The notes under the pieces: model-generated
The model's database searches: none
Told to the model about the DNA's origin: nothing
The model's input: only the letters and a program-made list of their open reading frames with translations
Part shown: in pieces, positions 23,597 through 45,485 of the stretch
Layout: each line of letters starts with the position of its first letter
How positions within the stretch are numbered: position 1 is the first letter of the stretch
Position numbers and translations under genes: made by a program
Origin: Ramlibacter pinisoli
Lineage (GTDB): Bacteria; Pseudomonadota; Gammaproteobacteria; Burkholderiales; Burkholderiaceae_C
Assembly (NCBI RefSeq): GCF_009758015.1
Contig: NZ_WSEL01000009.1
Location: 682,001 to 746,000 of the forward strand
Direction of reading: 5' to 3'
DNA: 64,000 bases

Positions 23597-23624
23597 CGCT
23601 GCTGGCCCAGCGTTGGCGACGGGC

Positions 23625-23650: not shown

Positions 23651-23654
23651 CAAC

Positions 23655-24758: not shown

Positions 24759-24786
24759 TTCCCCAGCGCCCCCTCCCGGAGACACC

Positions 24787-26344: not shown

Positions 26345-29300
26345 CTAGGGCGTCGACGGCGCGGCGCGCAGGCGCGCGATGGCGGCCGGAAGGTCGGCCC
26401 AGGGCGGCTGGCCGGGAGCGAAGCGTCCCCGCATGTAGCCGGCCAGGTCGGCGACCTGCTCGTCGCTGAGCGCGTGGCGGAAGGCCGGCATGAACCCCAG
26501 GTCGCGGCCGGCCGGCTCGCGGATGCCGTCCAGGATGACACGCACCAGGTTGTCGGGGCGCGCGGCGTGCAGGCTGGTGTTCAGGGCCAGCGGCAGGTTG
26601 ACGCCCAGCAGGCGCGGCCCGTCCCCGTCGTGGTGGCAGGCGCTGCACGCGCCCTCGAACAGGCGCTGGCCGGTGCCCAGCAGGGCCGGCTGGCGCGCGG
26701 CGGCGGCGGCCACCACCGACCGCGCGAGGCCCGCCTCGTCGGCCACCGGCGCCTGGAAGCTGGCCAGGTAGGTGGCCATCGCACGGACGTCGTCGTCGGG
26801 CAGCACCGCCAGCTGCTGCACCACGGGCGCCATCGGGCCGGCCGCGATGCCGTGGTGCTGCGTGTGGCCGTGGCGCAGGTAGCGGTACAGCTCGTCGGCG
26901 GACCAGGGGACCGGCGAGCGCGACAGGCCCGTGAGCGCCGGCGCCTCCCAGCCCTCGACCATGGCGCCCCCCAGGTAGGACGCGCCGCCCCGTTCAGCGC
27001 CCAGCGCGTTGCGGGCCGTGTGGCAGGCGCCGCAATGGCCGACACCGTTGACCAGGTAGGCGCCGCGGTTCCACTCGGCCGGCCGTTGCGGCTGCGGCTG
27101 GAACGGCGTGGCGTCGTGGAACAAGCCCTTCCAGCCGGCCAGCAACGGCCGCACGCCGTAGGGGAACGCCAGCTGGTTCGCCGGCGTGGCGGCTTCGACG
27201 GCCGGCTGCGCCATCAGGTACGCATACAGCGCGACGAGGTCGTCGTCGGTCATCCTGGCGAACGCCGTGTACGGAAAGGCCGGGTAGAGATGGCGGCCGT
27301 CGCGCGAGACGCCCTCGCGCATCGCGCGCTGGAACGCGCTGAACGACCAGGCGCCGATGCCGGTGCGCGCGTCGGGCGTGAGGTTGGTGCTGTGGACCAC
27401 GCCGAACGGCGTCTCCAGGGCGCGCCCGCCGGCGTTGGGCACGCCGCCCGGCGCCGTGTGGCAGACCACGCAATCGCCGGCGGCGGCGAGCAGGCGGCCG
27501 CGCTCGATGGTGGCGGCGGTGTAGACCGCCGAGGTCGAGGCCGCCACCGGCGCGATGGCGGGCCGCCAGCCGGCCAGCGCGGCCACGGTGCCGAGGACGC
27601 CGGCGCCCAGCACCAGCGCGTGCGACCAGGCCGGCCGGCGGCGCGGCCAGGGCGCATCGGCCGGTGCGCCCCGCGGGGCGGCGGGCGCTGGCACCGGCTC
27701 CGCGGCGGCCGGCGGCCCGTGCAGCGCAGCCCGCACCACCTCCGGCGTGAACGGCGGCTGCCGCAGGCGCACGCCGGTGGCGTCGAAGATGGCATTGGCG
27801 ATGGCGGCCGTGCCCGGCACCGACGCCGCCTCCCCGGCGCCCAGCGGCGGCTCGCCGGGACGCGGCATGGTGACCACCTCGACCACCGGCACGTCGCGGA
27901 AGCTCAGGATGGGGTAGCTGCCCCATTCCTGGCTGGCGACGACGTTGGTCCCGGGCGCCAACTGCACCTGTTCCTTGAGCGCGCGGCTGGTGGTCTGCAG
28001 CACGTTGCCGTGCAGCTGGTGCTTCACCCCTTCGGGATTGATCATCAGGCCGGCGTCGTGGCCCACCACCACCCGGCTGACGTGCACTTCGCCGGTGGCG
28101 CGATCGACCTCGACGTCGGCCACCCAGGCCGCCCAGGCCGAGCCATGGCCCGGCCACTTGCTGTGCATGTAGCGCGCATAGGCCACGCCCTGCCCCTTCA
28201 CGAGGTCGCCGCCGGCGGACTGCTGCCGCGGCCCGCTGCGCGGCTGCCAGCCGGCGCGGTCGGCGGTGGCGCGCAGCAGCTCGGCGGCCCGTGTGTCCTT
28301 CAGGTGGCGCAGGCGGAAGGCGACCGGATCGGCGCCGGCCGCGGCGGCCAGCTCGTCGATGTAGCTCTCGTGCGCGAACGAGTTCGGCAGCGCCGAGACG
28401 CCGCGCAGCCAGGAAGCGCGCAGCACCGGCGGCATGTCGTTGACGGCCACGCGCAGGTTCTCGTAGTCGTACGGCGGGCGCGCGGTGCGGTCGCCCATCT
28501 CGAAGGCCTGCGCCACCGGCTCGATGGTGCGCGTGAGCAGCAGCGCCAGCGTGGGCGCTCCGTTGGACGGGTAGGAGGTCTGGAAGTCGTAGGCGGCGAC
28601 CGAGCCGTCGGCGGCGAGCCCGCCGTTCACCTGCATCAGCTGGGCCGCGCCCTTGGGCTCCCAGGCGTGCTCCTGCTCGCGCGTGAGCTGCACCCGCACC
28701 GGCGCACCCACCGCGCGCGACAGCAGGGCCGCGTCGGCCGCCACATCGTCGGCGCCGTTGCGGCCGTAGCAGCCGGCCGCCTCCATGCGCACGACGTCGA
28801 TGGCGGTGTCGGCCATGCCCATCAGCCGGGCCAGGTCGGCGCGCAGCACGTGCGGGCTCTGCGAGCCGGCCCAGACCGTCATGCGCTCGCCCTGCCAGTC
28901 GGCCAGCGCACACGAGGGCCCGATGGAGGCATGCATCTGGTAGGGCCAGACGTAGGTGCGCGGCATCGGGTGCGCGGCGCGGGCGATGGCGCCGTCGACG
29001 TCGCCCTGCTCCACCAGGCGGCGCTGGGTGGCCGGGTTGGCACGCAGCATCCCGGCCAGGTCGGCCTGGTCCGGCAGCCCGGGCCAGGCCTTCCAGCGCA
29101 CCCGCAGCTCGCGCAGGGCCTGCTCGGCGTGTTCCTCGCGCTCGGCCACGATGCCGACGAAGTCGCGGATGACGACCACCGCCCGGATCCCCGGGATGTG
29201 GGCGATGGAGGCTTCGTCCACTGCCTCCAGCGTGTTGCCGATGAAGTCGCCGTGGTCGGCGCCCGCATAGGGTGGCCGCACCACCCGCCCGTGCAGCATG

Positions 29301-29965
29301 CCGGGCACCCGCATGTCGTGCACGAAGACCAGCCCGCCGGTGGCCTTGGCCGGGATGTCGATGCGCGGCACGCCGTGGCCGACGATGCGGTAGTCGTCCG
29401 GATGCTTGACGGGCGTGGCGGGGTCCAGCGGCAACTCGACGTGCTGCCCGTGCAGCAGCGCGCCGTAGCCCAGCTTGCGGTCGGGTTCCTCGACCACGCG
29501 CACGCTGCCGTTGCGCAGGCTGAGGGCGGACGGTGCGACGCCCAGTTCCCCGGCGGCGCGCACCAGCAGCCAGACCCGGGCCTGGGCCGCCGCCGCACGC
29601 AGCGGGGCGCCGTGGACCTGCAGGGACGCGCTCGCGATGGTGGGCCCCTGGTTGGGCGCCATGGCGGTGGTGCCCAGCACGGTGGCGACGCAGGCCAGCG
29701 GGACGTCGAGTTCCTCGGCCACGATCTGGGCCAGCGCCGTGGCCAGGCCGGTGCCCAGGTCGACGTGGCCGTGCAGCGCCGTGACGCTGCCGTCGTCCCA
29801 CACGGCCAGCAGGATCTCGGGCCCCTCGGCCGGGTTGCCCGGCACCACGGCCGGCTGGCCCGGCACGGGCGGCAGCGCCGGGGGCGGTTCGCGCGTGACC
29901 AGCAGCACGCCGGTGGCGGCGTGGAAGTCCGCCCGGCTGCGCGGCTGGTCGGCGCGCCGGCTCAT
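26345..29965 (-). CDS. nicB: Nicotinate dehydrogenase large subunit, molybdopterin domain fused to triheme cytochrome c
   Basis: This 1206-residue protein combines an isoquinoline-oxidoreductase-type molybdenum-cofactor domain (about 1-760), a membrane helix (about 779-800, ALVLGAGVLGTVAALAGW) and a cytochrome c region with three CxxCH motifs: CVVCH (831), CGACH (978) and CSACH (1107). The active-site Glu lies in PPLGAGEAASVPG (about 712). Architecture and length match NicB of Pseudomonas putida, which hydroxylates nicotinate to 6-hydroxynicotinate and passes electrons to cytochrome c. The gene follows nicA with a 4-bp overlap. The nicotinamidase, 6-hydroxynicotinate reductase and enamidase genes nearby strongly support nicotinate as substrate. 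Confidence 0.85.
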   Translation of the reverse strand: MSRRADQPRSRADFHAATGVLLVTREPPPALPPVPGQPAVVPGNPAEGPEILLAVWDDGSVTALHGHVDLGTGLATALAQIVAEELDVPLACVATVLGTTAMAPNQGPTIASASLQVHGAPLRAAAAQARVWLLVRAAGELGVAPSALSLRNGSVRVVEEPDRKLGYGALLHGQHVELPLDPATPVKHPDDYRIVGHGVPRIDIPAKATGGLVFVHDMRVPGMLHGRVVRPPYAGADHGDFIGNTLEAVDEASIAHIPGIRAVVVIRDFVGIVAEREEHAEQALRELRVRWKAWPGLPDQADLAGMLRANPATQRRLVEQGDVDGAIARAAHPMPRTYVWPYQMHASIGPSCALADWQGERMTVWAGSQSPHVLRADLARLMGMADTAIDVVRMEAAGCYGRNGADDVAADAALLSRAVGAPVRVQLTREQEHAWEPKGAAQLMQVNGGLAADGSVAAYDFQTSYPSNGAPTLALLLTRTIEPVAQAFEMGDRTARPPYDYENLRVAVNDMPPVLRASWLRGVSALPNSFAHESYIDELAAAAGADPVAFRLRHLKDTRAAELLRATADRAGWQPRSGPRQQSAGGDLVKGQGVAYARYMHSKWPGHGSAWAAWVADVEVDRATGEVHVSRVVVGHDAGLMINPEGVKHQLHGNVLQTTSRALKEQVQLAPGTNVVASQEWGSYPILSFRDVPVVEVVTMPRPGEPPLGAGEAASVPGTAAIANAIFDATGVRLRQPPFTPEVVRAALHGPPAAAEPVPAPAAPRGAPADAPWPRRRPAWSHALVLGAGVLGTVAALAGWRPAIAPVAASTSAVYTAATIERGRLLAAAGDCVVCHTAPGGVPNAGGRALETPFGVVHSTNLTPDARTGIGAWSFSAFQRAMREGVSRDGRHLYPAFPYTAFARMTDDDLVALYAYLMAQPAVEAATPANQLAFPYGVRPLLAGWKGLFHDATPFQPQPQRPAEWNRGAYLVNGVGHCGACHTARNALGAERGGASYLGGAMVEGWEAPALTGLSRSPVPWSADELYRYLRHGHTQHHGIAAGPMAPVVQQLAVLPDDDVRAMATYLASFQAPVADEAGLARSVVAAAAARQPALLGTGQRLFEGACSACHHDGDGPRLLGVNLPLALNTSLHAARPDNLVRVILDGIREPAGRDLGFMPAFRHALSDEQVADLAGYMRGRFAPGQPPWADLPAAIARLRAAPSTP

Positions 29966-30435
29966 GCCCGCAGCCGCCGCGCGGCCAGCCGCACCGCCTC
30001 GAGGATTTCCAGGTGGCAGCCGCAGCGGCACAGGTTGGCGGACAGCTCGCGCCGGATGTCGGCCTCGCTCGGGTCGGGGTTGCGCGCCAGCAGCGCCACC
30101 GTCATCAGGACCATGCCATTGAGGCAATAGCCGCACTGGGCCGCCTGGGCGTCGATGAAGGCCTGCTGCACCGGATGCGGCGCCGCGGCGGTGCCCAGCC
30201 CTTCCAGGGTGGTGATGGCGCGGCCGGCCACGCCGCCGGCCGGGATGGCGCACGCGCGCGCGGCGATGCCGTCGACCAGCACGGTGCAGGAGCCGCACTC
30301 GCCCAGGCCGCAGCCGTACTTGGGGCCGTTGAGCCCCAGGTCGTTGCGCAGCACGGTCAGCAACGAGGCCTGGCCGGACACCGGCAACCGGTGCGCCTGC
30401 CCGTTGACCTGGAGGGTGACCGTGGCCGGGTGCAT
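29962..30435 (-). CDS. nicA: Nicotinate dehydrogenase small [2Fe-2S] subunit
   Basis: This 157-residue iron-sulfur subunit passes electrons from the molybdenum site to the cytochrome domains. A plant-type [2Fe-2S] cluster uses Cys42, 47, 50 and 62 (GCGLGECGSC). The second cluster uses Cys101, 104, 136 and 138 (QCGYC; LCRCGC), as in xanthine-dehydrogenase-family small subunits. The length equals that of P. putida NicA. It overlaps nicB by 4 bp and lies 22 bp after the nicotinamidase gene in the same leftward operon. Confidence 0.9.
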   Translation of the reverse strand: MHPATVTLQVNGQAHRLPVSGQASLLTVLRNDLGLNGPKYGCGLGECGSCTVLVDGIAARACAIPAGGVAGRAITTLEGLGTAAAPHPVQQAFIDAQAAQCGYCLNGMVLMTVALLARNPDPSEADIRRELSANLCRCGCHLEILEAVRLAARRLRA

Positions 30436-30457
30436 CGGTCCGGCGTCGCCTGCTCGC

Positions 30458-31183
30458 TCAGCCCAGGACGTCGGCCGACTGGATGCGCTTGACGCCCTTG
30501 GACGTCATCTGCTTCCAGGCCGCCGCCAGCGACCCGTTCAGGTCGATCGCGCGGGTGGCGTCCTCGATGACATAGGTCTCGAAGCCCAGCTTGCGTGCAT
30601 CCATCGCCGTCCAGGCCACGCAGAAATCGGTGGCCAGCCCGGTGATGTAGACCGTGCGGATGCCGCGCTGCTTGAGGTAGCCGCCCAGGCCGGTGGCGCT
30701 CTTGTGGTCGGCCTCCTCGAAGGCGGAGTAGCTGTCCATGGCCTTGTGGTAGCCCTTGCGCACGATCAGCTGGGCGGTGGGCAGCTTCAGGTCCTTGTGC
30801 AGCGCCGCATCGTCGGTGCCCTGCACGCAATGGTCGGGCCACAGCACCTGCTGCCCGTACGACAGCTTGGTGGTCTCGAACGGCTTCTTGCCCGGATGGC
30901 TGCTGGCGAACGAGGCGTGGCCGGGCGTGTGCCAGTCCTGCGTGACCACGATGTTCTCGAACGACCCGGCCAGCTTGTTGATGATGGGCACGACCTCGTC
31001 GCCCTTGCCCACCGGCAGCGTGCCGCCCGGCACGAAGCAGTTCTGCACGTCGACCACGATGAGGGCCGCCTTGGCTCCGGTGTCGGGCTTGCCCGCCGCG
31101 AACAGCGGGCCGAAGGGGACGGCGGATGCGGCGAGGCCGAGTGCGCCGTGGCGCAGGAAGGTTCTTCGTTCGAGGCTTGGCAT
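30458..31183 (-). CDS. pncA: Exported nicotinamidase (isochorismatase fold)
   Basis: This 241-residue hydrolase converts nicotinamide to nicotinate and ammonia. The catalytic triad is Asp45 (LIVVDVQNCF), Lys143 (VRKGYHK) and Cys188 (LATDFCVAW). Metal ligands lie in TQDWHTPGHASF. Unlike cytosolic PncA, it begins with a twin-arginine signal (RRTFLRHGALGLAASAVPFG), so it should act in the periplasm. AGGAG precedes the ATG. Location between the ABC importer genes and nicAB links nicotinamide cleavage to nicotinate uptake and hydroxylation. Confidence 0.92.
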   Translation of the reverse strand: MPSLERRTFLRHGALGLAASAVPFGPLFAAGKPDTGAKAALIVVDVQNCFVPGGTLPVGKGDEVVPIINKLAGSFENIVVTQDWHTPGHASFASSHPGKKPFETTKLSYGQQVLWPDHCVQGTDDAALHKDLKLPTAQLIVRKGYHKAMDSYSAFEEADHKSATGLGGYLKQRGIRTVYITGLATDFCVAWTAMDARKLGFETYVIEDATRAIDLNGSLAAAWKQMTSKGVKRIQSADVLG

Positions 31184-31233
31184 GGCGTGCTCCTGGTGGG
31201 GAAGGATGGAATGGCGTGGGGTGCCCTGGGCCT

Positions 31234-31992
31234 TCAGACGCTCAGGTGGTTGCGCCGCACTTCGTCGTTGGCCGCCAGGTCCGCCATCGGACCCTGGAAG
31301 CGGATCTGGCCCTTCTCGAGCACGTAGGCCCGGTCGGAGACGAGTTCGGCGAAATGCATGTTCTGCTCGGACAGCAGGATGCTCACGCCCTGCGCCTTGA
31401 GCTCCACGATCATCAGGGCCATCTGCTCGACGATGACGGGCGCCACGCCTTCGGACGGCTCGTCGAGCAGGACCAGGTAGGGGTTGCCCATCAGCGTGCG
31501 CGCCACGGTGAGCATCTGCTGCTCCCCCCCGCTCATGCGCCCGCCCGGCCTCTCGCGCATCTCGCCCAGGTTGGGGAACAGCTGGAACAGCCGCTCCGGC
31601 GTCCAGGCCGGCGCCGGCTGGCCCTCGGGCCAGGTGCGCGCGGGCTGGCGGCCCACGGCCAGGTTCTCCATCACCGTGAGGTCGGTGAAGATGCGCCGGT
31701 CCTCGGGCACGAAGCCCAGGCCCAGGCGCGCCACGTCGTGTGGCTGCGCGCGCGAGATGTCGCGGCCCATGAAGTCGAGCGTGCCGCGCCGCCGGTCCAG
31801 CAGGCCCATCAGCGCCTTCAGGGTGGTGGACTTGCCGGCGCCGTTGCGGCCCATGAGCGCCACGACCTCGCCGCGCCGCACTTCCAGGTCGACGTCGAAC
31901 AGGATCTGCGCCGCGCCGTACCAGGCCGACAGGCCCTGCGCGCGCAGCAGCGGCGCGTTGCCGACGTTCACGTAGGGATGCGAGGCACTCAT
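31234..31992 (-). CDS. Branched-chain-type ABC transporter ATPase (LivF-like), nicotinate cluster
   Basis: This is a 252-residue ATPase with Walker A GRNGAGKST, signature MSGGEQQML, Walker B YLVLLDEPSEG and the H-loop replaced by a SEQN segment, as usual for LivF proteins. It pairs with the LivG-like ATPase whose stop codon overlaps its start (TGATG). Being inside the nicotinate operon, the importer probably brings in nicotinate, nicotinamide or 6-hydroxynicotinate rather than an amino acid; this is inferred from context. Confidence 0.9.
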   Translation of the reverse strand: MSASHPYVNVGNAPLLRAQGLSAWYGAAQILFDVDLEVRRGEVVALMGRNGAGKSTTLKALMGLLDRRRGTLDFMGRDISRAQPHDVARLGLGFVPEDRRIFTDLTVMENLAVGRQPARTWPEGQPAPAWTPERLFQLFPNLGEMRERPGGRMSGGEQQMLTVARTLMGNPYLVLLDEPSEGVAPVIVEQMALMIVELKAQGVSILLSEQNMHFAELVSDRAYVLEKGQIRFQGPMADLAANDEVRRNHLSV

Positions 31993-32774
31993 CACGCCGC
32001 CGCCTTGGTGGCCGCGGCCACCTTCTCGAAGGTCTTGCCGGTGCCGAAGTAGACCTCCTGCACCTTGGGATGGTCGCGGATCTCGGCCGGCCGGCCCTGC
32101 GCGATCAGCCGGCCGCGCGCCAGCACGATCAGGCGGTCGGCATAGGCGAACACCACGTCCATGCTGTGCTCGGTGAACAGCACCGCCAGCCCGCGCTCGA
32201 CCACCAGCCGCTTGGTGAGCGCCATGAGTTCGTTGCGCTCGCGCGGCGCCATGCCGGCCGTAGGCTCGTCCATCAGCAGCAGCTTGGGCTCGTTGGCCAT
32301 GGCGATGGCCAGCTCGACCCGCTTGACGTCGCCGTAGGCCAGCACGCTGCACGGCCTGTCGGCCTGCTCGGCCATGCCGACCTGCGCCAGCAGCCGCAGG
32401 GCGTCGTCGCGGCGGTGCGCGGCGGCCGGGCGCCAGAGCGAATACAGCTTGTGGTCGGCCGACAGCAGCGCCATCTGCACGTTCTCGACCACGGTGAGCG
32501 AGGCGAAGGTCTCGGCGATCTGGAAGGTGCGGCTCACGCCCATGCGCCAGATCGCGCGCGGCCTCAGGCCGACCAGCTCGCGCCCTTCCAGGCGGATGGA
32601 GCCGCTGTCGCAGCGCAGCTGGCCGTTGACCATGTTGAAGGTGGTCGACTTGCCGGCGCCATTGGGCCCGATGAGCGCCAGCAGCTCGCCGGCCGCGAGC
32701 TCGAAATCGATGCCGTCGACGGCGCGCACGCCGCCGAACGACTTGCCCAGCCCCTTGACCTGCAGCAGGCTCAT
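31992..32774 (-). CDS. Branched-chain-type ABC transporter ATPase (LivG-like), nicotinate cluster
   Basis: This is a 260-residue ATPase: Walker A GPNGAGKST, RTFQIAETFASLTVVENV typical of LivG, signature region LAYGDVKRVELA in place of LSGGQ, Walker B LLLMDEPTAGMAP and H-loop FTEHSMDVVF. It is the second nucleotide-binding subunit of the importer. It overlaps the fused permease gene upstream by 4 bp and the LivF-like gene downstream by 1 bp, so the three are translationally coupled. Confidence 0.9.
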   Translation of the reverse strand: MSLLQVKGLGKSFGGVRAVDGIDFELAAGELLALIGPNGAGKSTTFNMVNGQLRCDSGSIRLEGRELVGLRPRAIWRMGVSRTFQIAETFASLTVVENVQMALLSADHKLYSLWRPAAAHRRDDALRLLAQVGMAEQADRPCSVLAYGDVKRVELAIAMANEPKLLLMDEPTAGMAPRERNELMALTKRLVVERGLAVLFTEHSMDVVFAYADRLIVLARGRLIAQGRPAEIRDHPKVQEVYFGTGKTFEKVAAATKAAA

Positions 32775-34663
32775 GGCCGCACCCCGGCGCCGCGGCGCTG
32801 CTGGACCTGGCGCAGGAATCCGGCGATGCCCATCGGGAACAGCAGCACCAGCAGCAGGATGACGGCGCCCAGGGTGGCGCGCCAGTAGTCGGTGTTGCGT
32901 GCCACCGTGTCGTGCAGCCAGGTGAACGTGACCGCGCCCACGAGCGGGCCGGACAGGGTCTGGATGCCGCCCAGCAGCACCATCACCAGCGCGTCGACCG
33001 ACTTGCCCACGTGCAGGCTGTCAGGCGAGATGCTGCCCTTGGAAAAGGCGAACAGCGCGCCGGCCAGGCCGGCGAACAGGCCGACCAGCACGAACGCGAC
33101 CCACTGCATGCGCCGCACGTCGATGCCGATGGCGTCGGCCCGCAGCGCCGAGTCGCGGGCGGCCCGGATGGCGTAGCCGAACGGCGAGAACAGCGCGCGC
33201 CGCAGCCACAGCACGCTGCCGGCGACCAGCAGCAGGGTGAGGTAGTAGTAGCTGCGCCGGTCGGCCAGCCAGGACGAGGGCCAGACGCCGGTGAGCCCGT
33301 TGCTGCCCCCGGTGAAGCCGTCCCACTGGAACACGACGGCCCAGGTGATCTGCGCGAAGGCCAGCGTGAGCATGGCCAGGTAGACGCCCGACAGGCGCAC
33401 GCAGAACCAGCCGAACACCAGCGCGCCCAGCGCCGCCACCGCCGGGGCGACCAGCAGCGCGCCTTCCATCGGCAGGCCGATGCTGCGCACCAGCAACGCG
33501 GCACCGTAGGCGCCGAGCCCGAAGTAGGCGGCGTGGCCGAACGAGTGCATCCCGGCCGGGCCCATGATGAAGTGCAGGCTGGCCGCGAACAGCGCGGCGA
33601 TCAGCAGGTCGATGGCCAGCACCGTGACGTAGGGCGAGCCCGCCGTGGCCAGCGGCAGCAGCACCAGGCCGGCCAGCAGCACCGCGGCCGACACCTGGAA
33701 CGGCCGGCCTCCGGGGCGCAGCGGCGCCTCGGCCTCCCCCACGTGGCGGCTGATCGACTGCGGCCGCCCCATCAGGCCCCAGGGCCGCACGACCAGCACC
33801 ACCGCCATGACGAGGAACTCGACCACCAGCGTGAGCTTGGACATCGAGAGGCTGATGCCGGCCACCTCGACCAGCCCGAGCCAGATGCACAGGGCCTTGA
33901 GTTCGGCGATCAACAGCGCCGAGACGTACGCGCCGGGGATGGACCCCATGCCGCCGACCACGACGACCACGAAGGCCGAGCCGATGGTGAGCAGGTCCAT
34001 CTCGAGGTTGGCCGGCTCGCGCGGCAGCTGCAGTGCGCCGCCCAGGCCGGCCAGCATGGCGCCCAGCGCGAACACGCTGGTGAACAGCCAGGCCTGGTTG
34101 ACGCCCAGGGCGCTGACCATCTCGCGGTCCTGCGTGGCGGCGCGCACCAGCGTGCCCCAGCGGGTGCGCGTGAGCACCAGCCACAGCGCGCCCAGCACCA
34201 GGGGGCCGACCGCGATCATGAACAGGTCGTAGGCCGGGAAGCGCCGCCCGAGGATCTGGATCGAGCCGGCCAGGCCCGGCGCGCGCGGCCCGAGCAGTTC
34301 CTCGGGGCCCCAGGTCCAGAGCGCGGCGTCCTTGATGACCAGCACCAGCGCGAAAGTGGCCAGCAGCTGCAGCAGTTCGGGCGCGCGGTAGATGCGCCGC
34401 AGCAGGGTGATCTCGATGACGGCGCCGAGGGCGCCGACGGCCAGCGACGCCAGCAGCAGCGCCGGCCAGAACCAGGCGCCGCCGCCGCTGGCCTGCACCA
34501 GCGAATAGGCACCGTAGATGCCCAGCATGTAGAAGGAGCCATGCGCGAAATTGACGATGCGCGTGACCCCGAAGATGAGCGACAGGCCCGCCCCCACCAG
34601 GAACAGCGAGGAGGCGCCGGCCAGCCCGTTGAGCAGCTGGACGACGAAACCGGACAGGTCCAT
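32771..34663 (-). CDS. Fused branched-chain-type ABC permease (LivH-LivM)
   Basis: This is a 630-residue inner-membrane protein. The first half is LivH-like (GAGLSLIFGVTRIVNFAHGS; VVVVVGGMGSIPGAYVSALL) and the second half is LivM-like (MGPAGMHSFGHAAYFGLGAY; GGIQTLSGPLVGA). They are joined by a linker near residues 300-325 (PQSISRHVGEAEAPLRPGG). Two-in-one LivHM proteins occur but are less common than separate subunits; the second Liv cluster in this window keeps them separate. It works with the neighbouring ATPases and binding protein. Confidence 0.9.
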   Translation of the reverse strand: MDLSGFVVQLLNGLAGASSLFLVGAGLSLIFGVTRIVNFAHGSFYMLGIYGAYSLVQASGGGAWFWPALLLASLAVGALGAVIEITLLRRIYRAPELLQLLATFALVLVIKDAALWTWGPEELLGPRAPGLAGSIQILGRRFPAYDLFMIAVGPLVLGALWLVLTRTRWGTLVRAATQDREMVSALGVNQAWLFTSVFALGAMLAGLGGALQLPREPANLEMDLLTIGSAFVVVVVGGMGSIPGAYVSALLIAELKALCIWLGLVEVAGISLSMSKLTLVVEFLVMAVVLVVRPWGLMGRPQSISRHVGEAEAPLRPGGRPFQVSAAVLLAGLVLLPLATAGSPYVTVLAIDLLIAALFAASLHFIMGPAGMHSFGHAAYFGLGAYGAALLVRSIGLPMEGALLVAPAVAALGALVFGWFCVRLSGVYLAMLTLAFAQITWAVVFQWDGFTGGSNGLTGVWPSSWLADRRSYYYLTLLLVAGSVLWLRRALFSPFGYAIRAARDSALRADAIGIDVRRMQWVAFVLVGLFAGLAGALFAFSKGSISPDSLHVGKSVDALVMVLLGGIQTLSGPLVGAVTFTWLHDTVARNTDYWRATLGAVILLLVLLFPMGIAGFLRQVQQRRGAGVRP

Positions 34664-34706
34664 GGACGCGGGACGGGCGGGTGCGGCGGGTCGGGTTCGC
34701 GCTCGC

Positions 34707-35927: not shown

Positions 35928-35984
35928 CTCGGGCTCCAGGGATGGAAGTGGAAAAAAGTGAAGTGCTCGGTGGCAGGTGGGAGC

Positions 35985-36569
35985 CTAGCGCAGGCCGTCC
36001 TCGCCCTTGATCTCGTGGACCTGCAGGCCGCCCACGCGTGCCGACGGCCGCCCGCTGTCGGTGACGACCACGGCCACCACGATCTCGCCGGCGCGCGGGG
36101 CGTCGGCCACCCGCGCCTCCATGGCGTCGAAATGGCTGCGCACGAAGGCGGCGTCCTTGTGGCCCAGCGGGACATCGATCGCGGTGCCCAGGCCGCCCTG
36201 CTTCTTGGCCGAGGGCACCAGCGCGGCGCCCTTCTCCACCGCCTGGCGCAGCGGTGCGCCCAGCTTGGGATGCAGGATGGCGGCGGCATGCTCCAGCTCG
36301 CCGGCCTCGCCGACGATGGCCGCCTTGCCGTAGCTGTGCGCCTGGCCGGGCTGGATGCCCAGCGCCTGCACGCACCGGCGGCCCAGCAGCGCGCCCAGCT
36401 CCTCGCCGATGGCGACCAGCTCGTCCAGGTTGTCGCTGTAGCGCCCGGCGTACGGGTTGTCGATGACGGCCATGGCCAGCGCCTTGCGCGCAGGCGGGTC
36501 GATGGCACGGCCCATCTCGGAGCGGATCTCGTCGACCTGCACGACGATCTTGCGGATCTTGCTTGGCAT
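35985..36569 (-). CDS. DUF1185 (amino acid synthesis family) protein, copy 1
   Basis: This is a 194-residue protein of family DUF1185/AA_synth, whose biochemical role is unestablished. Recognisable blocks are NPYAGRYSDNLDEL, SYGKAAIVGEAGELEHAA, GTAIDVPLGHKDAAFVRSHF and the C-terminal ARVGGLQVHEI. It is a diverged tandem paralogue of the next gene upstream (shared NPYAGRY, GKGAVIG/GKAAIVG, FDAMEARV/FDAMEVRV). Position beside 6-hydroxynicotinate reductase and UPF0280 suggests an accessory or enzymatic role in nicotinate breakdown. Confidence 0.83.
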   Translation of the reverse strand: MPSKIRKIVVQVDEIRSEMGRAIDPPARKALAMAVIDNPYAGRYSDNLDELVAIGEELGALLGRRCVQALGIQPGQAHSYGKAAIVGEAGELEHAAAILHPKLGAPLRQAVEKGAALVPSAKKQGGLGTAIDVPLGHKDAAFVRSHFDAMEARVADAPRAGEIVVAVVVTDSGRPSARVGGLQVHEIKGEDGLR

Positions 36570-36601
36570 GGCTGTGGTTCCTCTGCTGTGGCCGGCCGCG
36601 C

Positions 36602-37240
36602 TCAGCGCTGCCCGTCCCATTGGCTGATGTCGGCCGCCTTCAGGCCGCCGACGCGTGCATGCACGCGCGGCCCGGTGCTCATGGCCAGGATGAGGACGAT
36701 CTCGTCGGCGTGCGGCGCGCCGGGCACCCGCACCTCCATCGCGTCGAAGTGGCTGCGCACGTAGGCGGCGTTGATGTGGGTGAGCGGGATGTCGAGCGCG
36801 GTGCCGGGGGCGCCGACCTTCTTGGTCGACGGCACGATGGCCAGCGCATTGCCGGGCTGGCCCAGGCCCTTCGCACCGGTCCCGGCGTCGGCCTTCCAGC
36901 CGAGCAGCTCGCGCATGGCGTAGCCCCCCGGCACATGCCAGAGCGCGCCGTGCTCCAGCTCGCCGGCGGCGCCGATGACGGCGCCCTTGCCGTAGCCCTG
37001 GATGGCGGCGGGCGGCACGTCCATCGCCGAGCACAGGCGCTGCGCCATCTCGATGCCCACCGGCTGCAGGGCGTCCATCAGCGGCAGGATGTCGGGCTCG
37101 TAGCGGCCGGCGTACGGATTGGCGAGCACCGCCGCGATGGCGCCCCGGCGCAGCGGCTGGGCAGGGACCGGGCCGAACTCGTGGTGGATGTCCTCCACCT
37201 GCGTCAGCACGCGCCGGATGTCGATGAGGGAACGGGTCAT
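36602..37240 (-). CDS. DUF1185 (amino acid synthesis family) protein, copy 2
   Basis: This is a 212-residue paralogue of the downstream DUF1185 protein, with NPYAGRYEPDILPLMDALQP, GYGKGAVIGAAGELEHGALW, GTALDIPLTHINAAYVRSHF and ARVGGLKAADIS. The two copies keep the same order of motifs but differ widely between them, so they may form a hetero-oligomer or have distinct substrates. It starts 10 bp after the stop of the UPF0280 gene, in the same operon. Confidence 0.83.
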   Translation of the reverse strand: MTRSLIDIRRVLTQVEDIHHEFGPVPAQPLRRGAIAAVLANPYAGRYEPDILPLMDALQPVGIEMAQRLCSAMDVPPAAIQGYGKGAVIGAAGELEHGALWHVPGGYAMRELLGWKADAGTGAKGLGQPGNALAIVPSTKKVGAPGTALDIPLTHINAAYVRSHFDAMEVRVPGAPHADEIVLILAMSTGPRVHARVGGLKAADISQWDGQR

Positions 37241-37250
37241 GGCGGCGCTT

Positions 37251-38153
37251 TCAGGCAGGAAGCCGTTCAGGGGCGGCAGGCGCGCTGGCGGGCGGCTGCA
37301 GGCGGGTGGGTGGATGGTCGGCAGTGGCGAACCAGCCTTGGCAGGCGAGGACGGCGGACTCGATCAGGCCTGCCGCCTGCAACTCGCGTGCCCGCGCCGC
37401 TCCGCGCGCGAGGGCACGCCGCACGGCCGCCTCGCCGAGCGCGGGGACGTCCACCGTGACGGGCAGCTCGCCCAGGTCGGTGTCGTCCTTCAGCTCGCAG
37501 GCGGGCCGGCGCCGGATGCGCGGATCGTCGACGTCGACCGCGTTGGCGACGACGGTGGCCGCCGCGTCGGCCTGGGCGGCGGTGCGCGCCAGCACGGTGA
37601 CGCTGTCGGCAATGCCGAGCGAGAAGCTGCGGCCGCGCCAGCCGCTGGTGGCGATGCCGCGCACCGGCTGGGCCGCGTGGATGCGGAAATCGCCGTCGAG
37701 GTGCAGGGCGCCGCCGCTGCGCTGCAGGCGCCCGAGGTCGGCGAACAGACCGACACGCAGGACCTCGCCCGGCGCCAGGTGCAGCGCGATGTCGCCGCCG
37801 TTGTTGACCCAGGCGCGGGCGATGCCGGGCTGCCGGTAGAAGGCGGCGAGTTCCTGCGCCACGGCGCCGGCCACGGCCGCCATCGGGGTGATGAAGCCAG
37901 CGCGGTACGGCTGGCAGGCCTGCCACATGCGCCGGGCGATGGGACCGGCGAGCGAGCACTCCTCGCCCACCGGCTGGCGCAGCAGCGGCAGCTCGGCCAC
38001 GAGTTCGTCGAGCACGCCGCGGAAACGCTGCCACGCCGCCTCGTGGGCGGCCTGCACCGCACCCGCCTCGCCGTCGGCGCCGATGACGATGTCGATCGGG
38101 CCGTGCTGGAAATGCCAGCGCTGGCCGGACAGGGGTTGGCGCTGCGCGCTCAT
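37251..38153 (-). CDS. UPF0280 family protein, ApbE-like fold
   Basis: This is a 300-residue protein of family UPF0280 (COG2122), unassigned biochemically. Two segments resemble the flavin-transferase ApbE: VNNGGDIALHL (about 116-126), like the ApbE NxGGD loop, and DSVTVLARTAAQADAAAT (183-200), like the ApbE VTVIAPSAxxADALAT segment with its metal-binding Asp/Thr. It lies between the DUF1185 pair and the 6-hydroxynicotinate reductase gene (11-bp gaps). A role in attaching flavin to the reductase is an attractive inference. Confidence 0.82.
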   Translation of the reverse strand: MSAQRQPLSGQRWHFQHGPIDIVIGADGEAGAVQAAHEAAWQRFRGVLDELVAELPLLRQPVGEECSLAGPIARRMWQACQPYRAGFITPMAAVAGAVAQELAAFYRQPGIARAWVNNGGDIALHLAPGEVLRVGLFADLGRLQRSGGALHLDGDFRIHAAQPVRGIATSGWRGRSFSLGIADSVTVLARTAAQADAAATVVANAVDVDDPRIRRRPACELKDDTDLGELPVTVDVPALGEAAVRRALARGAARARELQAAGLIESAVLACQGWFATADHPPTRLQPPASAPAAPERLPA

Positions 38154-38163
38154 GGCCGTTGCC

Positions 38164-39753
38164 TCAGCCCAGCATGGGCGGCATGCCCAGCGGCCAGGCG
38201 TTGGCGGGCAGGAAGGCCTGCGGGCGGCGGCCGGTGGGGGCGCCGTCGTTGTGCCAGGCGCCATGCGCCAGCACGTCTTCGAGCGGGCGGACATAGCCCA
38301 TGTGGCCGCCGAGCGCTTCGTAGTCGGCCAGCCGCATGCTGAACTCGATGGGCGCGACGATGGCCGGCGTGGGCACGGTGCCGAAGCTGTGGTCGGGCAT
38401 GCGCATGACGTCGACCATCACGGTGATGCCGCCGCCCGGCCAGACGTAGGCCGGCGCACCGCCGCAGGTGACGTTGACCAGCGCCTGCTTGATCGCCCGC
38501 GTCAGCTGCACCGGGTTGTCGGTGACGCCGGCGCGCAGGCTGCCCCCCGCCCCGCCGAGGAACAGCACCGTGCACAGCGACGGCTCGCAGTTCTCGCCGA
38601 TGCGCGCCACCGTGCCCGCCACGGCCGGCGGCAGAGGCAGCGGCCGCGGGACCAGGTCGTGGTCGAGCTCGTACCAGGCGGCGTGCTCGCCGGTGGTGGA
38701 CACCATGAGCAGCCGCAGCCCGGGCCAGGCCGCCTGCGGGTCCCAGCCCTCGACGATGGACAGCGGGTCGGCGATGTCGGTGCCGCCCCAGCCGGTGCCC
38801 GGGTTGGCCACCTGGAAGTAGCGCCCCGGGGTGGACTTGCGCCCGCGCACCTGGATGCCCGAGGGCCGCATGCCCAGGCAGCGGCCGGCCTGGTGCTGGG
38901 TGAGCACGCCGGTGATGTGGTCGTCGACCACCACCACCTCGTCGGCGTGGCCGAAGAACTGCTTGGCGAAGATGCCGATGGTGGCCGAGCCGCAGCCCAC
39001 GCGCATGCGCTGCTCCTCGACGCCGTTGACGATGGGCGCCCGGCCGGCCTGCAGGACGACCTGCGCGCCGCCGTCGATGGCGACCTCGACCGCCTGCCGG
39101 TTGCCCAGTGCCTGCATCAGGTCGCAGGTGACGCGGCCTTCCTTCTTGCTGCCGCCCGTGAGGTGGTGCACGCCGCCCAAAGACAGCATCTGCGAGCCGT
39201 ACTCGATGGTGGTGACGTGTCCGACCACCTCGCCCCTGCAGCGCACGTTGGCCTGCTCGGGCCCCAGCCAGCGGTCGGTGTCGATCTTCACCTTCAGGCT
39301 GCAGTAGCTGAAGATGCCCTCGGTGACCACGGTGACCAGGTCGACGCCCTCGGCCTGCGACGCCACGATGAAAGGCGCCGGCTTGTAGTCGGGGTAGGTG
39401 GTGGACGAGCCGATGCCGGTGACGAACACGCCCTCGGCGGGCAGCAGGCCGGCGGCCGGATCGGTGGGGTCGACCTCGCGGGTGGTGAAGGGCACCAGCG
39501 CGGCCTCGCCGGCGGCCAGCGAGCGGTGCAGGAACACCACCGGGTCGACCCGCACCAGGACGCCGGCCTCGTTGGCGTAGCGGTCGCAGGCGCCGGTCTT
39601 GCCGGCGGAGATCTGGCACAGCACCGGGCAGGCGTTGCATTCGATCTTGTCCGTGGCCATGCGCTCGTTGCGCGGCGCCGCCCTCTCCAGGACCTGCACC
39701 ACGGGCACCGACTCCAGCGTCGGCAACCCGTCAGTCTTGGTGTGTTCGGTCAT
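38164..39753 (-). CDS. hnr: 6-hydroxynicotinate reductase
   Basis: This 529-residue enzyme is expected to reduce 6-hydroxynicotinate to 1,4,5,6-tetrahydro-6-oxonicotinate. The N-terminus carries a ferredoxin-like cysteine cluster, Cys39, 42, 46 and 56 (CNACPVLCQ...GACDRY), for an iron-sulfur centre. The rest shows Gly-rich blocks such as TGIGSSTTYPDYKPAPF and NPGTGWGGTDIADPL. The family is known from Eubacterium barkeri nicotinate fermentation, where the enzyme takes electrons from ferredoxin. It is the first gene of the leftward operon; divergent genes for ferredoxin-NADP reductase and enamidase complete the logic. The ribosome site before the ATG at 39753 is weak. Confidence 0.85.
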   Translation of the reverse strand: MTEHTKTDGLPTLESVPVVQVLERAAPRNERMATDKIECNACPVLCQISAGKTGACDRYANEAGVLVRVDPVVFLHRSLAAGEAALVPFTTREVDPTDPAAGLLPAEGVFVTGIGSSTTYPDYKPAPFIVASQAEGVDLVTVVTEGIFSYCSLKVKIDTDRWLGPEQANVRCRGEVVGHVTTIEYGSQMLSLGGVHHLTGGSKKEGRVTCDLMQALGNRQAVEVAIDGGAQVVLQAGRAPIVNGVEEQRMRVGCGSATIGIFAKQFFGHADEVVVVDDHITGVLTQHQAGRCLGMRPSGIQVRGRKSTPGRYFQVANPGTGWGGTDIADPLSIVEGWDPQAAWPGLRLLMVSTTGEHAAWYELDHDLVPRPLPLPPAVAGTVARIGENCEPSLCTVLFLGGAGGSLRAGVTDNPVQLTRAIKQALVNVTCGGAPAYVWPGGGITVMVDVMRMPDHSFGTVPTPAIVAPIEFSMRLADYEALGGHMGYVRPLEDVLAHGAWHNDGAPTGRRPQAFLPANAWPLGMPPMLG

Positions 39754-39778
39754 GGACAATGGAGGGTTTCGGATCGGC

Positions 39779-39830
39779 TTGCCGGGTGGGGGACCATCAT
39801 GTAGGATCCACTGCAGTTTCATGTAGTGGA
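39779..39830 (+). promoter_or_regulatory. Divergent nicotinate control region: promoter and inverted repeat
   Basis: A rightward promoter is visible: -35 TTGCCG (39779-39784), 17-bp spacer and -10 TAGGAT (39802-39807). Immediately downstream is the inverted repeat TCCACTGCA-N6-TGTAGTGGA (39807-39830, 8 of 9 pairs), a size typical of TetR-family operators. CATGTAG occurs twice, 21 bp apart, around it. The site lies between hnr (leftward) and the ferredoxin reductase-tetR genes (rightward), so the TetR protein encoded at 40732 is the natural candidate to bind it. Confidence 0.55.
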
Positions 39831-39961
39831 CGCAACATGAAGCAGCAAATCTAGCCCATCGCCCGGCGGGTTGCAAGATTTTCTTTCGCGCCCCGCAAGA
39901 GGGCGAGGAGCCCCAGGATGAACCACACCATGCACATGCGTGCGCAGCCGGAGGCCCGGCC

Positions 39962-40735
39962 ATGAGCGCCTTCAACGAGGAAACCGTCACCGAGGTCCAC
40001 CACTGGACCGACCGGCTGTTCACCTTCAAGACCACGCGCGACACCTCGCTGCGCTTTTCCAACGGCCACTTCACCATGATCGGCCTGCGCATCAACGGCA
40101 AGCCGCTGCTGCGCGCCTACAGCATCGTGAGCGCGAACTACGAGGACCACCTCGAGTTCCTGAGCATCAAGGTCCCCGAGGGCCCGCTCACCTCGCGCCT
40201 GCAGCACATGAAGGTGGGCGACACCATCATCGTCGGCCGCAAGCCCACCGGCACCCTGCTCATCGACTACCTGCTGCCGGGCAAGCGCCTGTTCCTGCTG
40301 TCCACCGGCACCGGACTGGCGCCGTTCATGAGCATCGTGCGCGACCCCGAGACCTACGAGAAGTTCGAGCAGATCGTGCTGGTGCATGGCGTGCGGCAGA
40401 AGGACGAGCTGGCCTACCACGACCTGCTGGTCGAGCACCTGCCGGCACACGAGGTGCTGGGCGAGCTGGTCACCAGCCAGCTGCGCTACTACCCCACCGT
40501 CACGCGCGAGCAGTACCGCACCATGGGCCGCGTCACGGACCTCATGCGCACCGGCAAGATGTTCGACGACCTGGACATCCCGCCGCTGAACCAGGCCGAG
40601 GACCGCGTGATGATCTGCGGCAGCCCCGGCATGCTCAAGGACCTCAAGCACATGCTGGAGGAGCGCGGCTTCGCCGAGGGCAGCACCTCGCGGCCCGGCG
40701 ACTTCGTCATCGAACGGGCCTTCGCCGAGCAATGA
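39962..40735 (+). CDS. fpr: Ferredoxin-NADP reductase
   Basis: This is a 257-residue FAD enzyme exchanging electrons between NADPH and ferredoxin/flavodoxin. Diagnostic motifs are RAYSIVS (FAD binding), the NADP-binding STGTGLAPFMSIVRDPETYE and CGSPGML, and the C-terminal FVIERAFAEQ of subclass I bacterial Fpr. It is the first gene of the rightward arm, divergent from hnr. Because Hnr-type reductases use ferredoxin, this enzyme probably feeds that reaction from NADPH. No ferredoxin gene is in the window. It overlaps tetR by 4 bp. Confidence 0.92.
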   Translation: MSAFNEETVTEVHHWTDRLFTFKTTRDTSLRFSNGHFTMIGLRINGKPLLRAYSIVSANYEDHLEFLSIKVPEGPLTSRLQHMKVGDTIIVGRKPTGTLLIDYLLPGKRLFLLSTGTGLAPFMSIVRDPETYEKFEQIVLVHGVRQKDELAYHDLLVEHLPAHEVLGELVTSQLRYYPTVTREQYRTMGRVTDLMRTGKMFDDLDIPPLNQAEDRVMICGSPGMLKDLKHMLEERGFAEGSTSRPGDFVIERAFAEQ

Positions 40736-41409
40736 CCGCCACGGCGCCGCGCCGCTCCCCCGCCCGGACCGCCACTGCCGGCAAGCCGGGCGTGCGCGCG
40801 CTGGCCGCCCAGGAGACCCGCGACGCCATCCTCAAGGCGGCGACCCGCGTGTTCGCCAAGCACGGCTACTCGGGCGGGCGCGTCGACGCCATCTCCAAGG
40901 CCGCGCGGTCGTACGACCGCATGATCTACTACTACTACGGCAGCAAGGAAGAGCTGTTCATCGCGGTGCTGGAGGACATGTACCGCCGCTTCAACGAGGC
41001 CGAGTCGACGCTGGAGCTCGACAGCGACAACCCGGTGGAGGCGCTCACCGCGGTGATCACCTTCATGTGGACGTTCTACCAGCGCAACCCCGAGTTCATC
41101 ACGCTGCTGAACGACGAGAACCTGCACCGCGGCAAGCACATCGCCAAGTCGCTGCGCGCGCGCGACTACTCGTCGCCCGCCATCCAGATCCTCGAGCGCG
41201 TGCTGGAGGCCGGCGTCCGCCAGAAGGTGTTCCGGGCCGGCCTGTCGGGCCGCGACGTCTACCTGATGATCGCGGCGCTGAACTACTTCTACCTGTCCAA
41301 CCGCCACACCTTGTCGGCCTTCCTGGGCGAGAAGCTCGAGTCGCCCGAGGCGCTGGCCCACTGGCAGGCCTTCGTCGTCGAATCGGTGCTGCGCACGGTT
41401 CGGCCGTGA
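40732..41409 (+). CDS. TetR-family transcriptional regulator
   Basis: This 225-residue regulator has an N-terminal HTH (AILKAATRVFAKHGYSGGRV, then ISKAARSYDRMIYYYYGSKE) and a C-terminal TetR_C-like ligand domain (FITLLNDENLHRGKHIAKSL). It has a long Ala/Arg/Thr-rich N-terminal arm. It is translationally coupled to fpr and precedes the enamidase gene. It likely represses the divergent nicotinate operons through the inverted repeat at 39807-39830, with nicotinate or a pathway intermediate as inducer; this is inference. Confidence 0.88.
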   Translation: MTATAPRRSPARTATAGKPGVRALAAQETRDAILKAATRVFAKHGYSGGRVDAISKAARSYDRMIYYYYGSKEELFIAVLEDMYRRFNEAESTLELDSDNPVEALTAVITFMWTFYQRNPEFITLLNDENLHRGKHIAKSLRARDYSSPAIQILERVLEAGVRQKVFRAGLSGRDVYLMIAALNYFYLSNRHTLSAFLGEKLESPEALAHWQAFVVESVLRTVRP

Positions 41410-41452
41410 AGCGCCAGGCGGTCCGCTTTCGGTTTCTTTTCAGGAGAACGTC

Positions 41453-42640
41453 ATGGCAGAAGCGGCAGTCAGCGGCAAGTCCGGCAAGGTGGCCATCACC
41501 AACATCGGCCTGCTGCTCTCGGGCGACCTCGACCGGCCCATCCTGGACGCCGACACCATCGTCGTCCACGACGGGCTGATCACCGCGGTCGGTCGCGCCG
41601 CCGACTGCGACACGGAACGGGCCGACGTCACCATCGACTGCCGCCGCACCTGCGTGGCGCCCGGCCTCATCGACAGCCACGTGCACCCGGTGTTCGGCGA
41701 CTGGACGCCGCGCCAGGGCCAGCTGGGCTGGATCGACTCCACGATGAACGGCGGTGTCACGACCATGGTCTCCGCCGGCGAGGTGCACCTGCCCGGCCGG
41801 CCCAAGGACATCGTGGGCCTGAAGGCGCTGGCCATCACGGCGCAGCGCGCGTTCGACAACTTCCGCCCCGGCGGCGTCAAGGTGCTGGCCGGCGCGCCGG
41901 TCATCGAGCACGGCATGGTCGAGCAGGACTTCAAGGACCTGGCCGATGCCGGCGTGGGCCTGCTGGGCGAGGTCGGCCTGGGGTCGGTCAAGGCCGGCCG
42001 GGAGGCGGCGCAGATGGTGGCCTGGGCCCGCAAGTACGGCATCCAGAGCACCATCCACACTGGCGGGCCGTCCATCCCGGGCTCCGGCCTGATCGACAAG
42101 GACGTGGTGCTGGAGGCCGACGCCGACGTCATCGGCCACATCAACGGCGGCCACACCGCGTTGCCCGAGGCCCACGTCTGCGAACTGTGCGAACGCTCGG
42201 CGCGGGCGATCGAGATCGTGCACAACGGCAACGAGAAGGTGGCCATCGCCGCCGCCCAGGCCGCCCTGCAGCTCAAGTGCCCGCACCGCATCATCCTGGG
42301 CACCGACGGGCCGGCCGGCTCGGGCGTGCAGCCGCTGGGCATCCTGCGCATGGTCGCCATGCTGTCCAGCCTGGCCAACATCCCGGCGGAGCTGGTGTTC
42401 TGCTTCGCCACCGGCAACACGGCCCGGATCCGCAAGCTCAACTGCGGCCTCGTCGAGGTCGGCCGGGCCGCCGACTTCGTGTTCATGGACAAGGCGCAGC
42501 ACTCGGCCGGCAAGGGCCTGCTGGAGAGCGTGCAGCTGGGCGACCTGCCGGGCATCGGCATGGTCATGATCGACGGCATCGTGCGCTGCGGCCGCAGCCG
42601 CAACACGCCGCCGGCCACCGAGGTGCCGGTCGTCCTCTAG
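41453..42640 (+). CDS. ena: Enamidase (6-oxo-1,4,5,6-tetrahydronicotinate amidohydrolase)
   Basis: This 395-residue amidohydrolase-superfamily enzyme is predicted to open the ring of tetrahydro-6-oxonicotinate, giving 2-formylglutarate and ammonia. The metal site begins with HVH (His76, His78 in GLIDSHVHPVFGD) and continues with GEVGLGS, IHTGG, HINGGHTA and GTDGPAG. The stretch RPKDIVGLKALAIT and the C-terminal SRNTPPA resemble the E. barkeri enamidase, whose structure has a binuclear Zn/Fe centre. AGGAGA precedes the ATG. It is the natural successor of Hnr in the pathway and supports the assignment of the whole cluster. Confidence 0.88.
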   Translation: MAEAAVSGKSGKVAITNIGLLLSGDLDRPILDADTIVVHDGLITAVGRAADCDTERADVTIDCRRTCVAPGLIDSHVHPVFGDWTPRQGQLGWIDSTMNGGVTTMVSAGEVHLPGRPKDIVGLKALAITAQRAFDNFRPGGVKVLAGAPVIEHGMVEQDFKDLADAGVGLLGEVGLGSVKAGREAAQMVAWARKYGIQSTIHTGGPSIPGSGLIDKDVVLEADADVIGHINGGHTALPEAHVCELCERSARAIEIVHNGNEKVAIAAAQAALQLKCPHRIILGTDGPAGSGVQPLGILRMVAMLSSLANIPAELVFCFATGNTARIRKLNCGLVEVGRAADFVFMDKAQHSAGKGLLESVQLGDLPGIGMVMIDGIVRCGRSRNTPPATEVPVVL

Positions 42641-42986
42641 TTGCGCGGCGGCCCGCAGTCGCCGCTGGGGTCCAGCACTTCGGGGCCGCAGGCCGCGAAG
42701 GCCTCCGGCTTGATCCCGCCGCCCGCGTTCCGGTAAGGCGCGAAGCAGGCCTGGCTGCTGTCGTACGCCTGGCGCCGCTGACGGCAATCCTCGGCGCTGC
42801 CCCGGGCCGGCCGCACGCCGCCGGTCGCAGGCGCCGATGCGCCGACCGCCGGCGGGGGCGCCTGCGCCACCGCGCCCTGGCCGTCGTCGGCGGCCCGCGC
42901 CGCACCGGCCGCGCCGACGGCGAGCAGGCAGGCCAGGGCCCAGGCCCGGCAGGGCCCGGCGGGTCGTCGTGCAAGGAAGTGGCCGT

Positions 42987-42990: not shown

Positions 42991-43759
<769 letters not shown>

Positions 43760-43760
<1 letters not shown>

Positions 43761-45483: not shown

Positions 45484-45485
45484 GG

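Follow-up and report, generated by a model that had tools for sequence, protein, structure and literature searches.

What is a block of genes doing in which a cytochrome-linked nicotinate dehydrogenase (NicAB) lies beside a 6-hydroxynicotinate reductase (Hnr) and an enamidase (Ena) resembling those of Eubacterium barkeri, and what part does the UPF0280 protein next to hnr play in it? The block occupies positions 26345–42640 of a 64-kb stretch of DNA (hereafter the window; positions 682001–746000 of contig C9 in the 5.5-Mb genome G000). An earlier note on this DNA had read it as the upper nicotinate pathway with a reductive Hnr–enamidase branch. We re-examined the block gene by gene, correcting the starts, and compared ten of its proteins with Pfam and NCBIfam and six with the sequences of the Protein Data Bank. 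The homologies to the E. barkeri locus support the proposed pathway, and we are highly confident in assigning the upper part of it; that an Azorhizobium-type reductive nicotinate pathway explains the block as a whole we consider very probable. Judged by its gene content, the cluster is an intact, recurrent nicotinate pathway of an already known kind. The host appears to be betaproteobacterial, as the note had suggested, judging from the named relatives found in homologue searches.

The E. barkeri locus (L014) was found by searching with a stretch of the 2vun sequence, to which its Ena is 100% identical. Compared with these characterised proteins, as the earlier note had proposed, the window Hnr is 40% identical to the E. 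barkeri Hnr over 474 amino acids, and the window Ena is 45% identical to the E. barkeri protein, with 2vun aligned over nearly its full length (E = 2.8e-103). Ena residues H76, H78, E173, H202, H229 and D285, which we take to be the metal ligands, are the same in the aligned E. barkeri enamidase. An alignment of 92 Hnr sequences (A2) contains 81 invariant columns, and the window Hnr keeps the invariant cysteines C39, C42, C46, C56, C254 and C389. Hnr has at least 8000 homologues (a protein search in which all candidates scored passed); among the 120 matches listed, those with an organism name came from betaproteobacterial genera or Burkholderiales bins.

Of all the neighbours of hnr in the sampled genomes, the UPF0280 gene is the most constant. 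In a phylum sample of 398 Pseudomonadota genomes, drawn evenly, Hnr was found in 32 genomes and UPF0280 (model NF003322) in 32, and the two sets were identical; in all 32 the two genes lay <600 bases apart on one strand. These genomes represent 16 genera and are not 32 independent events, 17 of them falling in just two genera; Fisher values calculated for the two samples take no account of relatedness and were not read as probabilities. An order sample of 349 genomes gave 26 with Hnr and 26 with UPF0280, 25 of them in common. Here the genes were neighbours in 20 of the 25 and lay 5–24 kb apart or on separate contigs in the other five, both still being present. G000, G207 and G322 were positive in both samples. 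The Hnr of G016 matches in two pieces and that of G537 contains a TAG. Among 11 loci derived from the E. barkeri Ena, UPF0280 follows hnr in nine (L014–L017, L019–L023); L018 has an hnr frame shortened to 305 amino acids near a contig end and no UPF0280 in the available stretch, and in L024 both genes are missing and Ena matches at only 25%. Because UPF0280 follows hnr in these nine loci and accompanies it in both genome samples, the link spans Bacillota, a deltaproteobacterium, and alpha- and betaproteobacteria. We report this co-occurrence as new: UPF0280 is not named in the literature that we found, the papers on DUF1185 included, and the literature found on flavin transferases does not mention nicotinate, subscription papers being mostly outside the search.

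The fold of UPF0280 is that of the ApbE flavin transferases. Given this fold, the co-occurrence and the covalent flavin that E. barkeri Hnr reportedly carries (attributed to Alhapel 2006), UPF0280 is probably the Hnr flavin transferase, and we lean towards the view that it acts on the flavin of Hnr. The profile alignment to ApbE (6nxj; E = 0.18) covers the GG and ADxxAT stretches, which may correspond to residues of the Mg and flavin adenine dinucleotide (FAD) site of ApbE. UPF0280 is like the ApbE superfamily in fold and perhaps in these two stretches; it differs in showing, by eye, no leader peptide.

We also propose, tentatively and at slightly less than even confidence, that hnr and UPF0280, usually together with DUF1185 genes (PF06684), form a portable pyridine-dearomatising cassette. 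UPF0280 would be a dedicated cytoplasmic flavin transferase that makes Hnr active through a target site unlike that of ApbE, and the reduced ring would be opened by Ena in some genomes and by an ATP-dependent HyuAB lactamase in others. A number of observations weigh against our reading of the block, above all against the role given to UPF0280. The ApbE histidine has no counterpart in the UPF0280–ApbE profile alignment. Genome G507 (78% complete) has Hnr without UPF0280, its hnr lying at a contig end (positions 4–1032), and G468 (97% complete) has UPF0280 beside DUF1185b with no Hnr found in the assembly. The UPF0280 matches of G386 and G455 each contain one in-frame TGA, and PF06684 is not confined to Hnr genomes, occurring in 28 of the sample that lack Hnr, while the Hnr genome G139 does not have it. 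Finally, the ApbE target motif D-x-x-[ST]-G-A-[ST] (PMC12052999) is absent from the window Hnr. In G468 (L097), an apparent alpha-hydroxyacid oxidase, identified by eye, and other genes occupy the place where hnr would be expected.

That neither the ApbE histidine segment nor the ApbE target motif in Hnr was found would fit a different partnership, in which UPF0280 is a flavin carrier, a factor for iron–sulfur clusters or for folding, or an enzyme that has the reaction product as its substrate. Homologues below the cut-off in two methanogens among the control genomes point the same way, and we regard this alternative as possible, if rather doubtful, next to the ApbE fold and the flavin of Hnr.

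Ring opening is where the sampled Hnr genomes divide. We searched the 32 Hnr genomes for Ena (E 1e-40) and, with the protein encoded next to hnr in the plasmid locus L011 as query, for HyuA (E 1e-150), the search covering HyuA genome-wide but not HyuB. Ena was found in 18 of the 32, always at ≥62% identity. HyuA was likewise found in 18, of which 16 had a copy of ≥60% and two (G379 and G339) reached 44% only; the 60% line was set after this gap between 60% and 44% had been seen. With that line, 16 genomes have Ena only, 14 HyuA only, two both and none neither. The window genome has Ena only, and no HyuA match at E 1e-150 or better. Within the hnr stretch, hyuA and hyuB occur together in L010–L013, L040, L041, L045, L052 and L053, and hyuA occurs alone in L030, L054 and L055; the Hyu proteins of L011 match PF01968, PF05378 and PF02538. 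In the two genomes with both openers (G123 and G194), ena lies apart from hnr, with a DUF1185a and a DUF1185b of its own (L058, L059). The ATP-dependent HyuAB/CapAB family is known to open lactams, including valerolactams (PMC8453981, PMC11033972). From these distributions, Ena and HyuA-type enzymes appear to be alternative ring openers, which we report as new; no link between hydroxynicotinate and hydantoinase was found in the literature, subscription papers again being mostly outside the search. As part of the tentative cassette proposal, HyuAB, an unrelated enzyme, might perform the step of Ena in roughly half of the Hnr genomes in the sample.

The DUF1185 proteins follow this division in part. 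In a midpoint-rooted tree of 71 rows, 34 rows form the DUF1185a clade (support 100/100) and 22 the DUF1185b group (95/83), which is drawn open; six copies (L060–L062, L068–L070) fall outside both and were counted as neither. Nine copies from Bacillota and the deltaproteobacterium are 46–66% identical to b versus 34–40% to a, yet join a in the tree (83/75). DUF1185b was present in 18 of 18 Ena genomes and in one of 14 HyuA-only genomes (G386). A tie of DUF1185b solely to Ena was set aside in view of this genome and of the plasmid loci L010 and L011, where it lies beside HyuAB. As a heterocycle is opened in the breakdown of nicotinate, 7-hydroxycoumarin and trigonelline alike, we offer the guess that DUF1185 might be an enol–aldehyde tautomerase acting at or after ring opening, but think it unlikely to be right in this form. 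A role as 2-formylglutarate decarboxylase was set aside because E. barkeri, whose pathway is not known to include a decarboxylation at the 2-formylglutarate stage, keeps the gene beside ena. A chorismate-mutase-like fold is seen in the solved DUF1185 structures 3byq and 2qtp (PMC2954203). In 7-hydroxycoumarin breakdown, the DUF1185 protein HcdD is encoded beside a reductase, and an effect of HcdD could not be shown; its homologue TgnF is cited as stimulating a dehydrogenase step in trigonelline breakdown (PMC7913881).

The features of the block are as follows (window coordinates; the four Liv genes were assigned from their position, their orthologues and the annotation in locus L009):

26345–29965, − strand: nicB, molybdopterin and three-haem cytochrome c subunit of nicotinate dehydrogenase (MoCoBD_1/2 and cytochrome c domains)
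29962–30435, − strand: nicA, [2Fe-2S] subunit of nicotinate dehydrogenase (PF01799, Fer2_2; PF00111, Fer2)
30458–31183, − strand: nicotinamidase with a twin-arginine (Tat-like) leader (2wt9, NF008623)
31234–31992, − strand: livF-type ATP-binding cassette (ABC) ATPase (82–84% identical orthologues in L009, L025 and L026; annotated ABC ATP-binding protein in L009)
31992–32774, − strand: livG-type ABC ATPase (orthologues; annotation in L009)
32771–34663, − strand: fused livHM-type permease (orthologues; annotated ABC transporter permease in L009)
34707–35927, − strand: livK-type substrate-binding protein (orthologues; annotated substrate-binding protein in L009)
35985–36569, − strand: DUF1185 protein b (PF06684; Pfam match)
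36602–37240, − strand: DUF1185 protein a (PF06684; Pfam match; 3byq, E = 8.5e-49)
37251–38153, − strand: UPF0280 protein with ApbE fold, proposed Hnr flavin transferase (NCBIfam match)
38164–39753, − strand: hnr, 6-hydroxynicotinate reductase, short form (40% identical to E. barkeri Hnr; matches no Pfam family)
39800–39815, + strand: predicted operator site 1, TGTAG-N6-CTACA with one mismatch (pattern search)
39822–39837, + strand: predicted operator site 2, TGTAG-N6-CTACA with one mismatch (pattern search)
39962–40735, + strand: fpr, ferredoxin–NADP reductase (PF00175, PF00970)
40732–41409, + strand: TetR-family regulator (PF00440, PF17938)
41453–42640, + strand: ena, enamidase (2vun, E = 2.8e-103)

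The genes that the earlier note had named (nicotinamidase, NicAB, Hnr, Fpr, Ena, the ABC importer and TetR) lie where it placed them, with all frames open; its list omitted three genes between livK and hnr, the two for DUF1185 proteins and the one for UPF0280. Like the note, we noticed nothing in the block that resembles nicC or nicX, no genome-wide search having been made. The same gene set is present in L025 and L026 and, minus the nicotinamidase, in L009.

NicB carries CxxCH motifs at residues 832, 978 and 1107; between its molybdenum part and its haem part lies a weak hydrophobic segment that begins near residue 781. The start of its gene overlaps nicA by four bases. NicB and NicA are 53% and 61% identical, respectively, to the products of genes annotated nicB and nicA in L010, and this identity, together with the architecture, suggests a homologue of the nicotinate 6-hydroxylating dehydrogenase. 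The nicotinamidase matches that of 2wt9 (E = 5.8e-92) and exceeds the cut-off of NF008623. Since it has a twin-arginine leader, as do its orthologues in L025 and L026 (seen by eye, without a predictor), the enzyme is probably exported and would feed the importer, for whose LivK-type protein we infer nicotinate or nicotinamide as the ligand. Beyond ena, after a small frame at 42637–42990, a second Liv-type ABC importer set lies at 42987–46454 on the − strand (by eye).

The earlier note considered the combination of a cytochrome-linked dehydrogenase with a reductive branch to be unusual. We found nicA/nicB-type genes sharing a stretch with hnr in 17 of 36 alpha- and betaproteobacterial loci (L009–L011, L025–L028, L031–L040; nicA of L011 is cut at the edge). 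Moreover, an aerobic Hnr route has been published for Azorhizobium, and such a cluster, that of Bradyrhizobiaceae strain SG-6C, was printed in 2012 (PMC3511419), so that the cluster is neither new nor unusual in mixing aerobic and anaerobic enzymes. When nicotinate is the sole carbon source, SG-6C degrades it and 6-hydroxynicotinate appears transiently; the reduction of this compound to 1,4,5,6-tetrahydro-6-oxonicotinate (THON) is known from E. barkeri and Azorhizobium (PMC3511419), which have been placed in one route (PMC9304392). On the side of Azorhizobium caulinodans and SG-6C, L031–L039, which all belong to one genus (g110), have nicAB and hnr together with UPF0280, DUF1185b and Liv genes. 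The window differs from this type in its betaproteobacterial host, in having a TetR regulator versus MarR in L031–L039, a second DUF1185 copy and a nicotinamidase in the block, and in the divergence of fpr–tetR–ena from hnr. With E. barkeri L014 it shares the adjacency of hnr to UPF0280 and of ena to DUF1185; instead of NicAB, L014 has separate FAD, iron–sulfur and two molybdenum subunits, and its Hnr has an N-terminal 2[4Fe-4S] domain. Pseudomonas putida uses NicAB followed by NicC and the maleamate route; the window block has the NicAB-type dehydrogenase in common with it, and Hnr and Ena in place of NicC.

The N-terminal 2[4Fe-4S] domain is typical of the E. barkeri type of Hnr (PF14697, PF00037 and others in most of 120 matches listed). 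We counted ferredoxin motifs in sequences carrying an anchor motif, which, with 39 loci carrying hnr, is present in 37 alpha- and betaproteobacterial loci. None of these 37 had a ferredoxin motif, nor did any of 115 among the 120 listed homologues of the window Hnr, the other five being without the anchor. In the E. barkeri-type search, 57 of the 120 matches listed had the anchor, of which 51 showed two ferredoxin motifs, three one and three none; of the four Bacillota and deltaproteobacterial loci with the anchor, three had two motifs and one had one. The alpha- and betaproteobacterial Hnr therefore appears, from its sequence, to lack the ferredoxin domain of the anaerobic enzyme, which we report as new. 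Because of this short form, the electrons of Hnr probably come from Fpr via a separate ferredoxin. Fpr, the probable electron source, matches NF008178 at E = 7.7e-46, but its 156 of 390 bits are under the curated cut-off. We saw no gene for a ferredoxin in the block, a point that counts against this route.

The divergent genes hnr and fpr are separated by a promoter region at 39754–39961. Allowing ≤1 mismatch, TGTAG-N6-CTACA has two matches in the 64 kb, at 39800 and 39822 with one mismatch each, both in this region; 0.20 matches would be expected, and two were reached in one of 100 shuffles, although the pattern was taken from an alignment of relatives that includes the window and the count is not fully independent. 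L009, L025 and L026 also have TGTAG/CTACA half-sites in the corresponding intergenic region. We think it likely that TetR acts through this predicted pair of operator sites, which we report as new.

We infer the following scheme. Exported nicotinamidase would convert nicotinamide to nicotinate in the periplasm, and the Liv-type ABC importer would take nicotinate in. NicAB would hydroxylate it to 6-hydroxynicotinate, passing electrons via its three-haem part to the respiratory chain, and Hnr would reduce this to THON with NADPH electrons delivered by Fpr and a ferredoxin encoded elsewhere. Ena would then open the ring of THON, yielding 2-formylglutarate and ammonia. UPF0280 would attach (or supply) the covalent flavin of Hnr, DUF1185 may assist during ring opening or directly afterwards, as a possible enol–aldehyde tautomerase, and TetR would repress both transcripts from the TGTAG-N6-CTACA sites between hnr and fpr.

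Such a block could instead serve mainly a related substrate, such as 6-chloronicotinate, another hydroxypyridine or N-substituted nicotinates, with nicotinate being incidental. Elsewhere, Hnr modules do sit with other molybdenum hydroxylases or with HyuAB in place of ena, so that their substrates may vary, and SG-6C employs the same kind of cluster downstream of 6-chloronicotinate (PMC3511419); nicotinamidase, NicAB and Ena, however, occur together here and in L025 and L026, a combination that fits nicotinamide and nicotinate, and makes this explanation improbable. It is similarly hard to believe that the cluster is silent, or provides only nitrogen under oxygen limitation owing to a need of Hnr for low-potential electrons. 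While the lack of a ferredoxin gene in the block and of the anaerobic ferredoxin domain in Hnr would be in keeping with such a limit, all frames are open, both the gene set and the operator-like sites recur in relatives, and SG-6C degrades nicotinate when this is its sole carbon source (PMC3511419).

For the steps after 2-formylglutarate, which the earlier note placed outside the window and left open, the choice can be narrowed. In E. barkeri, the gene after that for DUF1185 encodes a 614-residue protein that, judging from gene order, is presumably the B12-dependent 2-methyleneglutarate mutase. With this protein as query, the window genome gave only partial matches of 109 and 76 residues, and we rejected the E. 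barkeri lower route for want of a full-length match to the presumed mutase. A glutaryl-CoA dehydrogenase (GcdH) is encoded outside the window, on contig C3 (L087; E = 3e-227 to 3eom). It was first sought beside a CaiB-type CoA transferase, in five PF02515/PF02771 neighbourhoods (L081 and L082 by motif scan only), and was found elsewhere by a motif scan, the 3eom match confirming the protein. With no full-length mutase match and GcdH present, the glutarate route described for Azorhizobium (PMC3511419) is the better guess, although GcdH is not specific and serves other pathways too.

Elsewhere in the window, positions 19864–26315 resemble a sugar-acid catabolic cluster, with a RuBisCO-large-like protein (19864–21147, + strand; PF00016), a LacI regulator (22532–23596), an enolase-superfamily protein (23613–24758) and, by eye, a four-carbon acid kinase and a tripartite-type binding protein in between. 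Three long frames, at 49967–51244, 51597–54644 and 55359–58838, match no Pfam family over the cut-off and may be non-coding frames of GC-rich DNA.

Finding the pathway in a betaproteobacterium mainly widens the range of a known pathway. Its wider meaning lies with the partners of Hnr. HyuA-type enzymes, if they do act as proposed, would be a second, ATP-dependent way of opening a reduced pyridine ring. UPF0280, a ‘hypothetical protein’ in NCBIfam, gains a concrete, testable role, and as a flavin-fixing partner, if it is one, it would matter for expressing active ring reductase.

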